Assembly (NCBI GenBank): GCA_021325175.1
Contig: JAJPHS010000056.1
Coordinates: 1-64,000 of the forward strand
From: Terriglobia bacterium
GTDB taxonomy: Bacteria; Acidobacteriota; Terriglobia; Bryobacterales; Bryobacteraceae
DNA: 64,000 nucleotides
Direction: 5' to 3'
Below the pieces are notes generated by a model. That model worked only from the letters and a program-made list of their open reading frames with translations, did not search any database and had not been told where the DNA came from. Each line of letters begins with the position of its first letter. The stretch's first letter is position 1. The translations under genes were made by a program, and so were the position numbers. Positions 18,483-25,090 of the stretch are shown here, one piece after another.

Positions 18483-19517
18483 GTGAAGGTCGTCATGATC
18501 GACGATTCGGCGCCGGATCGGAAACTGTACCGGGTGCTGCTGGAGGAGGGATTCGGCAACGGTTTGCGGTTCTGGGAGGAAAGTTTGGCGGCGCGCGGAA
18601 TCGAAACCTGCCGCCGCGTGGCGCCGGATTGCGTTCTGCTCGATTATAAGCTCCCGGATATGACCGGCCTGGAGTTTCTGACCCAGATCCGGTCCGAAGA
18701 CCCCGCCGATGCGCCGGCATTCGCGGTGGTGATGCTTACCGGGCTGGCCGACGAGCAGGTGGCCGTCGACGCCCTGAAAAGCGGTGCGCAGGATTATCTG
18801 GTTAAAGACCGGATCACGCCGGAGGCGCTGATGTCGGCGGTCCGGCGCGCGCACGAAAAAGTGGACCTGCTGCGAACGCTAAAGGCCGAGCGCGACCGGC
18901 TGGCGGAGTCGCTGGCGGAAAAAGAGGTCCTGCTTAAGGAAGTTCACCACCGCGTGAAAAACAATTTGCAGGTGATCGCCAGCTTGCTGCGCCTTCAGGC
19001 TGCCTCCTTCGCCGATCCGGCGATGGCCGCCGCTCTGCGCGAGAGCCAGAATCGTGTCGAGTCCATGGCTTTGATCCACGAGCAGCTTTATGAAACGAGC
19101 GACCTGCGCGAAGTGGATCTGGCCGAGCACGCCGGCCTGCTCGCCAATAACCTGTATCGCTCCTATGGCGAGCCGGAGCGCATCGCGATGAGCTTCGCGG
19201 TCGAGAAATTGCCGCTGAGCCTCGATCGCGCGATTCCCGCGAGCCTGATCCTCAACGAATTGATCTCGAACGCGCTCAAGCACGCTTTCCCCGGCGGCCG
19301 CGCCGGATCGATTGAGATTCGCGGGCGCGCCGAAAACGGAAAGATTGCGCTGGAGGTCCACGACGACGGCGCGGGCGTGGCGCCCGAGTTGGACCTGAAG
19401 CGGCCGAAATCGCTCGGGCTGGAGATCGTCAACATTCTGACGCGCCAGTTGAAAGGCGTTTTCGAGCTGGAGCGCGGCGAAGGAACGACGTTCCGCGTTT
19501 GCTTTCCGAGTTCGTGA
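18483..19517 (+). CDS. Receiver - HisKA_2 histidine kinase fusion
   Basis: This 344-residue soluble signalling protein has an N-terminal receiver domain (1-125) with Asp7/Asp8, phosphoacceptor Asp54 (VLLDYKLPDM) and Lys108. A short coiled linker leads to a HisKA_2 motif, EVHHRVKNNLQ, with the phosphoacceptor among His155/His156. The ATPase domain has LNELISNALKHAF (N-box) and HDDGAGV (G1). Receiver plus HisKA_2 fusions are often the receiving kinase in a phosphorelay or light/stress pathway. The start is GTG at 18483 with no Shine-Dalgarno. The next gene, a degenerate hybrid kinase, begins 2 nt after the stop, so the two are surely one operon. Confidence 0.9.
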   Translation: MKVVMIDDSAPDRKLYRVLLEEGFGNGLRFWEESLAARGIETCRRVAPDCVLLDYKLPDMTGLEFLTQIRSEDPADAPAFAVVMLTGLADEQVAVDALKSGAQDYLVKDRITPEALMSAVRRAHEKVDLLRTLKAERDRLAESLAEKEVLLKEVHHRVKNNLQVIASLLRLQAASFADPAMAAALRESQNRVESMALIHEQLYETSDLREVDLAEHAGLLANNLYRSYGEPERIAMSFAVEKLPLSLDRAIPASLILNELISNALKHAFPGGRAGSIEIRGRAENGKIALEVHDDGAGVAPELDLKRPKSLGLEIVNILTRQLKGVFELERGEGTTFRVCFPSS

Positions 19518-19519
19518 TT

Positions 19520-21352
19520 ATGGATCCGGCAATGTACAAGATTCTGGTGGTCGAAGACGAGGGGCTGATCGCGCACGACATCGCGGACCGTCTGGCGGCG
19601 CTCGGCCATAAGGTGATCGCGACGGCGGCCACGGCGGAGGAGGCGATCGAGCGCGCCTCCGGCGCCGATCTGGTCCTGATGGACATTCGCCTGGACGGCC
19701 GCGCCGACGGGATCGAAGCGGCGGCCGAGATCCGCGCGCGATATCACCTGCCGGTAATTTTCCTGACGGCGCACGCCGACCGCTCGACGCTTGAACGCGC
19801 CAAGACGGCCGCGCCGTTCGGATATATCGTCAAGCCGTTGTCGCACAATTCGCTGAATACGTCGATCGAAATGGCGATGCACAAATACCGGCTGGAGCGG
19901 CAGCTTGAGGAGCGCGAGGCGTGGATGCGAACCGTGCTCGGCTCGGTTGCCGACGCGGTCGTGGTCGCCGACGCGAGCGGGCGCGTGGTGATGCTGAATC
20001 TCGCCGCGGAGGTGCTGACGGGATGGCCGCACGCGGAGGCGCAGGGGCAGCCGGTCTCGAAAGTGGTCGCCCTGGCGAAAGAAAACGGAGCGGTCGCCGG
20101 CGAGGACCCGGTGGCGCTGGCAATGCTTCGCGATGCCGTGGTGCCGCTGGCGCGAAGCTGGCGCCTGGTTTCCCGCAGCGGGCGGGAAATGAGCGTCGAA
20201 GGCGCGGCCGCTCCGGTGAAGACCAACACCGGCATTATCGGCGCGGCGCTGAGCTTCCGCGACGTGAGCGCGCGGCGCTGGGAGGAGCAGCAGATCCGCC
20301 AATCGCAAAAACTTGAAGCGCTCGGCCGGCTGGCCGCCGGCGTTTCCACCGATTACTCAAACCTGCTGGGCATCGTTCGTAATCGGGCGGACCAGTTACT
20401 CCGCCACTTCGGAGAATACTCGCCCGCCCGCAAGCTGATCGAGGAGATCGAGCAGGCGGCCGTGGCGGCGGACCAGATCAACCGGCGGCTGGCGGCGTTC
20501 GGATCGCGGCAGGTGTGCCAACCCGAGCCGGTAAGCCTGAACGCGCTGCTGCGGCGCTCGACCAAGCTGATCGAGTCCCTGGCCGGTACGCAAATCGAGC
20601 TGTCGATTCGCCCCGATCCGGCCACGATGCGCGTGCGCGCGGACACGTCGCAGATCGAGCAGGCGCTGCTCGGCCTGATCCTGCATGCCTGCTCCAGGAT
20701 GGCTTTGGGCGGGAAGCTGCTGATCGAGACGCGCAACGCCGGCGCGCCGGCCGGCAGTCAGATTGCCGCCTACGCAATGCTTGCGGTGACCTACACGGGC
20801 GAAGAAGACGAACCGGAGCGCCTGTTTGAGCCTTGCCCTGCGGGTGAAGAAGGAATGGCGCTGGCGATGGTGCACGCCATCGTCACCGAACACGGCGGCT
20901 ACATCTCCGCACAGCGCGCCGGCTCCGGCGGCTGCCGCTTCGAAATTCTTCTTCCGGCCGAAACTGCCGCCGCGCTTCCGGCCGCTCGCGTTTTCTCGCG
21001 TCGGGAGGCGCCCGCCATCCTGCTGATCGAATCGCGCGACGCGGTTCGCGCTGAGCTTCACAATTTTTTCGAAGCCAACGGCTATAACCTGCTGGAGGCG
21101 GCCGATACCAGCGAGGCGCTAGCCGTGAGCAAGATGCACGAAGGCTCGATCGACCTGCTGATCGGCGAGGCGCCGCTTGGAGCGGCCGCGGCAGAACTGG
21201 TGCGGGAGCATTCAGCGCTGAAAGTGCTGGAAATTGTGGACGAAGCGCCGCGCGCCAATCAGATCCGTCGTCCCTTTACGCAGGCGGCGCTACTCGAAAA
21301 AGTGGAAGCGCTGCTTCAGGATCGCGCCAAGCTGGCCCCAGCGACGGCATAA
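19520..21352 (+). CDS. Receiver - PAS - degenerate histidine kinase - degenerate receiver
   Basis: This 610-residue protein starts at the ATG 2 nt after the preceding kinase. The first receiver (about 1-120) is intact: Glu12/Asp13, Asp55 and Lys105. A PAS domain (about 135-250) follows. The kinase core is recognisable but eroded: the H-box reads GVSTDYSN with Thr277 where GVAHDFNN has His, the N-box reads LILHA with His389 for Asn, the G1 Asp is Tyr425 (VTYTG), and the glycine loop is lost (EEGMALAM). The C-terminal receiver has Glu550 in place of the phosphoacceptor Asp and Arg for the conserved Lys. It is unlikely to autophosphorylate; a scaffold or regulator of the neighbouring kinase is inferred. 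Confidence 0.85.
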   Translation: MDPAMYKILVVEDEGLIAHDIADRLAALGHKVIATAATAEEAIERASGADLVLMDIRLDGRADGIEAAAEIRARYHLPVIFLTAHADRSTLERAKTAAPFGYIVKPLSHNSLNTSIEMAMHKYRLERQLEEREAWMRTVLGSVADAVVVADASGRVVMLNLAAEVLTGWPHAEAQGQPVSKVVALAKENGAVAGEDPVALAMLRDAVVPLARSWRLVSRSGREMSVEGAAAPVKTNTGIIGAALSFRDVSARRWEEQQIRQSQKLEALGRLAAGVSTDYSNLLGIVRNRADQLLRHFGEYSPARKLIEEIEQAAVAADQINRRLAAFGSRQVCQPEPVSLNALLRRSTKLIESLAGTQIELSIRPDPATMRVRADTSQIEQALLGLILHACSRMALGGKLLIETRNAGAPAGSQIAAYAMLAVTYTGEEDEPERLFEPCPAGEEGMALAMVHAIVTEHGGYISAQRAGSGGCRFEILLPAETAAALPAARVFSRREAPAILLIESRDAVRAELHNFFEANGYNLLEAADTSEALAVSKMHEGSIDLLIGEAPLGAAAAELVREHSALKVLEIVDEAPRANQIRRPFTQAALLEKVEALLQDRAKLAPATA

Positions 21353-21536: not shown

Positions 21537-23459
<1,923 letters not shown>

Positions 23460-23460
23460 G

Positions 23461-23541
23461 TGGCCGGTGTCCGGTGGCCAGAAGAAGCTAGTGCCGGCCA
23501 CTAGCGACTGGCCACTGGCCACCGGGGAATCGGCCACTGGC
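23461..23541 (+). repeat. Nested inverted repeats in the dnaK-dnaJ spacer
   Basis: The 87-nt spacer is built from variants of GGCCACTGG. CCGGTGGCCAG (23471-23481) pairs perfectly with CTGGCCACCGG (23515-23525). Inside it GCTAGTG (23487-23493) pairs with CACTAGC (23499-23505). A further CGGCCACTGGC unit lies at 23531-23541. The transcript should fold into a stable branched hairpin just before the dnaJ start. Confidence 0.75.
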
Positions 23542-23546
23542 TTAAT

Positions 23547-24713
23547 ATGGCTCAGCAGGACTACTATCAAACCCTTGGTGTATCGCGCGAGGCGAGCGAA
23601 GAGGATATTCGCAAAGCGTACCGAAAACTCGCTCGTAAGCATCACCCGGACCTGAATCCGGGCGATAAAGCAGCCGAGGAGCGCTTCAAAAAAGTCCAGG
23701 AAGCATACGACGTCCTGAGCGATCCGAAAAAGAAGCAGATGTACGATCAGTACGGCTTCTATTCGGAAAACGGGATGCCCGGAGGAGCGGGAGCCGGCGC
23801 GGGCCAGCGCGGGCCCAACATGGGCTTCGGAGGGTTCGACTTTTCCGACATTTTCACGCGCGGCGCAGCGGGCGGGCGGCGGCCATCGGCGGAGGAGTCG
23901 GCCAATTTTCAAGATATTTTCAGCCAGTGGTTCGGCCGCCACCACGGTGAAGAGTCCACCCTGCCGCAAAAGGGCAGCGATCTTGAATACGGTTTGAACA
24001 TCGACTTCTGGCAGGCGATCCGCGGCACCCAGGTGAGGCTGAATATTAACCGGCAGGAAGCGTGCACCAGCTGCGGAGGCACGGGCACGGCGAAGTCGGG
24101 CGCCAGCATGGTTTGCCCGGAATGCAATGGCAGCGGCACCGTGACCCAAGCCGCGGGCGCGATGCGCTTCAGCCTGACCTGCCCGCGATGCAATGGAACC
24201 GGACGCCTGCGCAATCAGTGTCCGGCGTGCCATGGCGACGGCCGCATCACCACCACGGAAACGGTGGAGGTGCGCATCCCGCCGGGGGCGCAGCAAGGCT
24301 CGCGTTTGCGGGTCCCTGGAAAAGGAAACGCGGGGACGCACGGCGCGCCGCCTGGCGATCTGTACATCACCGTCCGGGTCGAGCCGCATCCCTTCTTCCG
24401 GCGCGACGGCGACGACATTTACATTACGGTGCCAGTGCGGATCGATGAAGCCGGGCTGGGAGCGAAAATCGAAGTGCCGACCATCGATGGCCGGGCGCTA
24501 CTGAAAATTCCGCAGGGAACCAAGAATGGCCAGAAGTTCCGGATGCGCGAAAAAGGAGTGCTGAATTCCCGCACCGGACAGCGCGGCGATCAAATTGTCG
24601 AGGTGGCGATCGAGGCGCCGGAGGTTCACGACGAGCGCACCAAGGAGCTGCTACGCGAGTACGCCAGGCTTCATCCCGACGATCCGCGCCAGGCCGTCTG
24701 GGCGAAGCTATGA
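23547..24713 (+). CDS. dnaJ: Chaperone DnaJ (Hsp40)
   Basis: This 388-residue type-I J-protein has a J-domain (1-70) with HPD at residues 33-35. A Gly-rich region follows, then a four-repeat zinc-binding cluster at about 173-232 ([32 protein letters not shown]) and the C-terminal substrate-binding beta domains. It stimulates DnaK ATPase and delivers clients. No Shine-Dalgarno precedes the ATG at 23547; the stable inverted-repeat structure in the spacer may set its expression relative to dnaK. hspR overlaps its stop by 4 nt. Confidence 0.95.
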
Positions 24714-25090
24714 GGAAACGGAACAAGGCTGCCTACATGATCTCGGCTGTGGCCGAGCAGTATCAGATCCATCCGCAAACGCTGCGCCTGTATGAGCGCG
24801 AAGGCTTGCTGAAGCCCTCCCGCAGCGATGGCAACACGCGTCTTTACACCGAAGAAGACCTGGAGCGGCTGGAGGTGATTCTCAAGCTCACTCGCGATCT
24901 GGGCGTCAATCTGGCGGGCGTCGAAATTATCCTCAATATGCGCGAAAAAATGGCGGAAATGCAGCGTCAAATCGAGCAGTTTGTCGCCAGTCTGAATACC
25001 GAATTAGCGCAGCGCCCGCCTCATCCCGCCGGACCGGAAAATTCGCTGGTCCCGGTGATCGAAGTGAAGAAGATGAAACGAACCGGTTAG
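24710..25090 (+). CDS. hspR: Heat-shock repressor HspR (MerR family)
   Basis: This 126-residue protein has an N-terminal MerR-type winged helix (about 9-77): [25 protein letters not shown], then the wing and [20 protein letters not shown] coiled-coil dimerisation helix follows ([15 protein letters not shown]). The sequence and its position directly after dnaJ (ATGA overlap) are typical of HspR, which represses dnaK operons with DnaK as co-repressor. The lack of effector-domain cysteines argues against a metal-sensing MerR. The operator is probably the degenerate HAIR-like site at 21451-21471. Confidence 0.92.

Follow-up and report, generated by a model that had tools for sequence, protein, structure and literature searches.

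The gene at positions 19520-21352 (+ strand, as for every feature given here) of the window, i.e., of the whole 64,000-nucleotide stretch of DNA that was analysed, encodes a 610-residue protein which, going by its residues, is a kinase-dead derivative of a Rec-controlled hybrid histidine kinase. It is a real and conserved protein, and we do not class it as a member of the Rec-controlled histidine kinases themselves. On balance it likely is the response regulator of the HisKA_2 histidine kinase encoded just upstream, with what was once a kinase module now providing a binding or dimerization output.

Translation, Pfam, alignment and a fold model together give the layout REC1-PAS-pseudo(DHp-CA)-pseudoREC2. 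The first receiver, REC1 (residues 7-120; 19538-19879), possesses what is expected of a canonical receiver, that is, the acidic pair (E12, D13), the phosphoacceptor aspartate (D55), the threonine (T83) and the lysine (K105). It is followed by a PAS domain (residues 135-256; 19922-20287) which is found both by Pfam (PAS 2.9e-7, PAS_4 6.2e-6) and in the fold model. Next come a pseudo-DHp (20267-20503) made up of two long helices (residues 250-297 and 301-328 in the model) and a pseudo-CA domain (residues 336-482; 20525-20965), the latter recognized by alignment. Here T277 (20348-20350) replaces the H-box histidine, H389 (20684-20686) the N-box asparagine and Y425 (20792-20794) the G1 aspartate. 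The protein ends with REC2 (residues 499-600; 21014-21319), a pseudo-receiver in which E550 (21167-21169; translation and alignment) takes the place of the phosphoacceptor aspartate, the second acidic residue is gone, arginine (R584, by reading of the alignment) substitutes for lysine, and the alpha-4 region is shortened. An initial annotation had described these same three catalytic replacements, an intact first receiver and PAS domain, and the glutamate and arginine of the last receiver, and in all of these respects it was accurate.

Histidine-kinase boxes (H, N, G1, F and G2) are named here, and their roles understood, in the usual way. The H-box of the protein reads LAAGVSTDYSNL, its N-box LLGLILHACSRM and its G1 box AVTYTGEEDE. 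The lid/G2 region is EPCPAGEEGMALAM, whereas intact relatives read like EPFFTTKxxGxGTGLGLA. The G2 glycines thus are absent (EEGMAL), so the ‘glycine loop’ is indeed lost, as had also been suggested, and an F-box remnant (LFEP) is the only ATP-site box left. Pfam matches consist of the two receiver stretches (Response_reg 2.2e-23) plus PAS. HisKA is not matched at E<=1, and the 25.0 bits of HATPase_c fall below the 26.4-bit cut-off; for comparison, one intact relative (L160) scores 3.4e-8 for HisKA and 1.4e-22 for HATPase_c. The protein therefore is without the H-box histidine, N-box asparagine, G1 aspartate and G2 glycines of a histidine kinase. It shares with Rec-controlled kinases a receiver that is N-terminal to DHp-CA, though not a kinase-competent DHp-CA. 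It instead is a ‘pseudo-histidine kinase’, i.e., a histidine-kinase fold that has been kept under selection without histidine-kinase functions, with the loss of activity here deduced from residues. As the phosphorylatable histidine is missing from only 0.9% of sampled bacterial HisKA domains, according to the available portion of one survey (PMC12632262), the losses seen here are more than would be expected by chance.

Those losses are shared. The search covered 61 genomes, including 23 from the window’s genus, and in 19 of the 23 it found an orthologue, with the 18 other orthologues being 46-87% identical to the window protein. None of the 19 has the N-box asparagine, 17 having histidine there, and none has the G1 aspartate, which is replaced by tyrosine (10), histidine (8) or alanine (1). 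The H-box histidine is found in just one orthologue (L013, from genome G016), itself without N-box asparagine and G1 aspartate, while the remainder have T, A, S, E, N, C, G, D or V. In three (L024-L026) the lid region is missing altogether. Aligning homologues, as the initial annotation had proposed, thus has a mixed outcome for its particular residues, since Thr277 and Glu550 are unconserved (4 of 19 each) but histidine at the N-box position largely is conserved; as to the losses as such, those of asparagine and aspartate are complete across the orthologues and that of histidine is nearly so. REC1 has fared differently, with D55, T83 and K105 present in all 19 orthologues and E12/D13 in all 18 rows reaching them.

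Selection has acted on the whole of the protein. Whole-gene dN/dS is 0.10-0.18 in all seven pairs compared, with per-domain values for these seven pairs ranging from 0.045 to 0.374 (one domain-pair value being undefined through saturation), and all domains of the pseudokinase are under purifying selection. The orthologue from G012, 87% identical, agrees in having T, H and Y at positions 277, 389 and 425, making sequencing error very unlikely. Neither an assembly error nor, among the 19 orthologues, a close relative with intact boxes was found, both of which had been named as grounds for abandoning the idea of a pseudokinase.

The gene lies, as initially noted, 2 nt behind what appears to be an active receiver-HisKA_2 kinase. 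That is, an open reading frame at 18483-19517 ends 2 nt before position 19520 and encodes a 344-residue receiver-HisKA_2-HATPase_c histidine kinase (Pfam HisKA_2 7.9e-28, Response_reg 3.6e-18, HATPase_c 1.1e-11), the motifs of which are present, including the phospho-acceptor motif EVHHRVKNNLQ (18939-18971; by comparison with orthologues). This ‘partner’ is the single match to PF07568 in the window’s genome (G000), and hence the only HisKA_2 protein found there. Within the genus, 19 of the 23 genomes match PF07568. These are precisely the ones that carry the pseudokinase, and neither PF07568 nor the pseudokinase was found in the other four (G001, G004, G008 and G014; 95-99% complete). Were genomes independent, i.e., ignoring kinship, such both-or-neither occurrence in 23 of 23 would have a chance of 1 in 8855. 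The two genes adjoin in 17 of the 19 genomes. In G016 both are at contig ends, with the pseudokinase frame cut by the contig end, and in G021 the pseudokinase has no adjacent kinase, with that genome’s sole HisKA_2 gene found elsewhere, beside a REC-PAS-AAA-Fis regulator.

The partner’s HHRVKNN is retained in 21 of 21 rows compared (from 18 genomes other than G021, some represented twice), and its N-box in all 19 rows that reach it. A genetic tie between a kinase-dead protein and its HisKA_2 neighbour, as suspected from the window by itself, thus is borne out by co-occurrence, by adjacency and by the partner’s H-box. In the G007 partner (L055), G1 reads NNGVE versus DDGxG or DNGxG elsewhere, an Asp to Asn change, and this kinase, judging from that motif, may itself be losing activity; three further partner rows (L049, L051, L062) have substitutions in G2 or receiver motifs.

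What surrounds the pair is less constant. Of 17 loci fetched from other genomes of the genus, 10 have one neighbour gene family in common, with the pair together in 9 of those 10, and 9 of the 10 adjoin apparent M16-type peptidase genes (by reading). An orphan pseudokinase, that of G021 (L090; G021:C177), is found, with no kinase beside it, at the locus common to 9 other genomes. In the window itself the pair is followed, at 21537-25090, by dnaK, dnaJ and a MerR-type (HspR-like) gene. A dnaK-dnaJ-linked role was considered and dropped, as dnaK is beside the pair only in the window and in one of the 17 fetched loci (L076, of G012). The genes for pseudokinase and HisKA_2 kinase have moved as a unit, and no convincing target gene was found among conserved neighbours at the fetched loci of the genus.

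More distant relatives were sampled in two ways, with an orthologue profile against 200 genomes (among the matches listed) and with a REC1-PAS profile against 120 genomes of the family. The share of dead rows in the first sample is biased, since that sample was drawn mostly from matches to a profile of dead proteins; the REC1-PAS survey is less biased, yet its query also held dead members. With a cut at E<=1e-58, which was our choice (the next matches being at 1.3e-54, partial, G140:C16, and at 1.7e-44), the survey gives 41 matches. Following REC1-PAS, 28 of these continue into a histidine-kinase-like part (14 intact, 14 not) and 7 into an AAA/Fis activator, while 4 stop after PAS and 2 run into a GGDEF-family match; the latter three classes, and the intact call for L209, were assigned by reading translations plus patterns. 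Seven dead relatives were run against Pfam, six of them proving to be without HisKA and HATPase_c and one (L143) showing HATPase_c. Five of the six (L131, L133, L136-L138), which are counted among the 14 non-intact survey rows, may have other C-termini and not be kinases. With five doubtful rows removed, 9 of 23 histidine-kinase-like survey rows are dead, 3 of the 9 coming from the window’s genus. The sixth without either Pfam match, L127, can be aligned with residues 4-548 of the window protein (39% identity). For 34 of the 41 survey rows the stretch that was fetched contains a HisKA_2 open reading frame, and for 24 the motif is within 900 b; none was found for the other 7, four of which are ~1.6 kb or less from a contig end.

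The two matches running into GGDEF (L210:3423-4904 and L211:3124-4503) do so with 30.6 and 16.0 bits, respectively (cut-off 23.8). The GGDEF signature was not seen in either, so these possibly represent another disabled output on a REC-PAS unit.

Intact REC-PAS-HisKA-HATPase(-REC) relatives are found in other genera (17 rows, e.g., L160, L146 and L149). Their layout is that of the window protein, with a second receiver in 16 of the 17, and they are 31-37% identical to it over most of its length (L142 at 42%, though just across residues 8-262). For 14 of the 17, the fetched DNA includes a HisKA_2 open reading frame. They keep the H, N and G1 boxes, unlike the window protein.

How often catalysis has been lost can be asked of a tree, for which ‘dead’ means that any one of H-box histidine, N-box asparagine or G1 aspartate is missing; L145 thus is counted as dead for its asparagine alone, and L126_6861 for its histidine alone. 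L139, with its receiver unaligned, was left out, as were two rows of L128 that nearly duplicate L126. Based on REC1-PAS columns, and with 35 dead and 17 intact rows among the matches listed, this tree requires at least six changes between live and dead, one of which rests on five rows whose C-terminus possibly is not that of a kinase. A single loss for all dead members is rejected by the AU test (p 2.9e-5, 35 rows versus 17). By contrast, one clade consisting of the window’s genus along with a four-row group, g46, is not rejected (AU p 0.13), and g46 has histidine and tyrosine at the N-box and G1 positions, as does the window’s genus. Tandem pairs of REC-PAS-histidine-kinase-like genes are seen as well (L126, L127, L128). 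In L126 and L128 one copy has lost only the H-box histidine (to arginine), keeps its ATP site and is without a second receiver, while the other copy is fully degraded.

As a control, 40 PAS-HK-REC hybrids without REC1 were taken from the same genomes, picked by similarity rather than at random. The H and N boxes, G1 aspartate and receiver aspartate are intact in 20 of these. One group of 18 has glycine in place of histidine but is otherwise intact, the remaining 2 have degenerated in part, and none of the 40 has lost all three boxes. As the histidine-less group shows, proteins outside the HisKA_2-linked family can also lose the histidine and nothing else. The glycine-for-histidine group (AGDFNN; L161-L175 and L177-L179) is from other genera, and has the N-box asparagine, G1 aspartate, glycines and receiver aspartate intact. 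L028 and L033 also have glycine for histidine, with the N-box of L033 masked. Flanks are available for seven glycine-for-histidine loci, with an LpxL-like gene preceding in four (L215, L216, L218, L220) and an mnmA-like gene upstream in three (L213, L215, L216), both by reading. In L176 (G104) and L180 (G144) the H-box histidine is kept and the N-box asparagine has become histidine and tyrosine, respectively, with the G1 aspartate of L176 having become tyrosine. These replacements in L176 are the same as those of the window protein, in a different group.

In an AlphaFold2 model made with six sequences, a receiver and PAS are followed by a pair of long DHp-like helices, then by a CA-like domain and a second receiver that has no alpha-4 helix. 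Given a mean pLDDT of 73.9 and a pTM of 0.32, the arrangement of these domains is not established. The best Foldseek matches to the model are PAS/LOV histidine kinases, and LvrB (PDB 8vc9) as well as the DHp-CA of CckA are among the best 50; whole-chain TM-scores are low, and we claim domain folds alone.

How, then, might such a protein work? Most likely the adjacent HisKA_2 kinase would supply phosphate to REC1. Phosphorylation of REC1 would then be signaled through PAS and the long two-helix stalk of the pseudo-DHp, which probably still dimerizes, thereby altering how a target protein is bound by the pseudo-CA and by the pseudo-receiver, in which the alpha-1/beta-2 strip is conserved. The ancestor would have been a hybrid kinase under Rec control (REC-PAS-HisKA-HATPase-REC), such as other genera still have near HisKA_2 kinases, with catalysis then presumably lost in the window’s genus and the fold retained as a binding or dimerization output. 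A variable part following a constant receiver unit is usual for response regulators. With REC1 conserved, and with REC1-PAS constant and what follows it variable, a response regulator with a dead-kinase output is the simpler reading. Transmission through a helical stalk has a model in the Rec-controlled kinase LvrB, and output via protein binding has one in NifL (available portions of PMC13269768 and PMC12998174, respectively). Against this reading, the G021 pseudokinase has no neighbouring kinase and partner motifs are imperfect in L055, L049, L051 and L062. In addition, high REC1 conservation would be expected as well if another kinase supplied the phosphate.

A pseudokinase scaffold or allosteric partner, as suggested in the initial annotation, may be considered as well. 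The tight genetic link to one kinase would be expected of an allosteric pseudokinase, i.e., a DivL-like partner that would attach to the HisKA_2 kinase, or pair with another kinase in a mixed dimer, and so set a balance between kinase and phosphatase, REC1 then being a feedback phosphate sensor. We consider this to be unlikely, if worth keeping in mind. Precedents exist in the DHp-CA of DivL, which reads a phosphorylated response regulator (PMC4211667, in its available part), and in an evolved ChrS pseudokinase that acts with HrrS (PMC9491836, likewise). DivL, however, is described in that same text as keeping its N, G1, F and G2 boxes, whereas here there is the LFEP remnant only and, in L024-L026, loss of the lid, and the mixed dimers of ChrS, as far as the available text goes, are between native forms rather than with the truncated pseudokinase (PMC9491836). 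Such a mixed dimer would, furthermore, have to span two distinct DHp families, HisKA_2 and HisKA, and is not an obvious outcome. The unrelated outputs which follow the same REC1-PAS in the wider family are a better fit to a regulator.

Alternatively, REC1 alone could matter, draining phosphate from the HisKA_2 kinase as a ‘sink’ while the parts downstream drift, which we view as distinctly improbable. REC1 is the most conserved domain, with a mean pairwise identity of 0.69 versus 0.45-0.52 for the others, 4 of the 41 family members stop after PAS, and in the closest pair the highest dN/dS values, i.e., the least constraint, are those of REC2 (0.37) and CA (0.27). Downstream-domain dN/dS nevertheless is well below 1 in every defined pair, and REC2 has invariant residues, neither of which would suit parts that are simply drifting.

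REC2 had been read in the initial annotation as a locked-on phosphomimetic. The window protein does have E550 and arginine for lysine, and glutamate at the phosphoacceptor position partly activates many receivers (PMC12632262, as excerpted), but the same source, again in its available portion, gives glutamate and arginine as common substitutes in pseudo-receivers generally. Among the 19 orthologues, position 550 is aspartate in 9, including the closest relative, glutamate in 4, and proline, alanine or glycine in 6. The second acidic residue near the start of REC2 is kept in 1 of the 19, and arginine for lysine occurs in 15 of the 19 (by reading of rows). In 15 of the 19, the interval between residues 573 and 583, i.e., the alpha-4 region, has shrunk to 4-10 residues. 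Of the 17 intact relatives, 16 have 18-25 residues there, and the other is without REC2 and so outside of this comparison. A constitutively active phosphomimic thus is very improbable, and we reject it based on this pattern of orthologue conservation. What is conserved is a strip corresponding to alpha-1/beta-2 (residues 507-529; 21038-21106), a candidate binding surface, residues 507-527 having a mean column conservation over the orthologues of 0.81 versus 0.32-0.70 for other REC2 segments. A number of its invariant residues (H514, E518, G521, L524, E526) are already common among intact relatives; the changes that most clearly mark the lineage are F517 and N523, each found in just 1 intact row. 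In CikA a comparable region of the pseudo-receiver is where ligands bind (PMC12632262, available part), which is a hint of a ligand at this strip rather than evidence of one.

That the gene is a pseudogene in decay, or an artefact of assembly, as missing catalytic residues on their own might suggest, can be set aside as next to impossible, the orthologues being conserved, with frames open in 19 genomes (that of G016 cut by the contig end), the G012 sequence in agreement and dN/dS low in all seven pairs.

More broadly, and tentatively, it is quite possible that within the Bryobacteraceae the kinase module of HisKA_2-linked Rec-controlled hybrids has been repeatedly disabled and kept as a response-regulator output of a new type, a phosphorylation-gated, dimeric pseudokinase/pseudo-receiver binding platform, one that would be evolutionarily interchangeable with sigma-54 activator outputs. 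That repeated loss across the family is to us the most interesting part. Few pseudo-histidine kinases are understood and histidine-less HisKA domains are rare, as per the percentage cited above. In this case a dead kinase has kept a conserved and apparently working REC1 input, a single kinase is the obvious candidate to act upstream of it, and relatives of the same layout are alive, which allows one to ask what a Rec-controlled kinase gains by giving up catalysis.

We found no papers on the pseudokinase/HisKA_2 pair or on pseudo-histidine kinases of Acidobacteria, the subscription literature having been covered in part. Of the systems with which the protein may be compared, NifL to our knowledge has no receivers. 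Like the window protein, it has PAS ahead of a kinase-like GHKL/DHp part without phosphotransferase activity and acts by protein binding; unlike it, inhibition by NifL depends on nucleotide status and the target is NifA (PMC12998174, available portion). LvrB of Leptospira, the prototype Rec-controlled histidine kinase, has a receiver before DHp-CA, uses phosphorylation of that receiver as its input and is fed by another kinase, but is described in the accessible text as an active kinase consisting of Rec-DHp-CA only, whereas the window protein adds PAS and a second receiver and is kinase-dead (PMC13269768). DivL, of the alpha-proteobacteria, likewise is without a phospho-acceptor histidine, is clade-conserved and is networked with an active kinase, and differs in keeping its ATP-binding boxes and in reading a separate regulator; its family is recognized, as far as that source was available, by tyrosine or alanine at the histidine position with other boxes kept, and in the window protein those other boxes are lost (PMC4211667). 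The pseudo-receivers of CikA and ShkA, lastly, resemble REC2 in being degraded receivers within hybrid kinases, but, in the available account, they inhibit their own active kinase (PMC12632262), while that to which REC2 belongs is dead.
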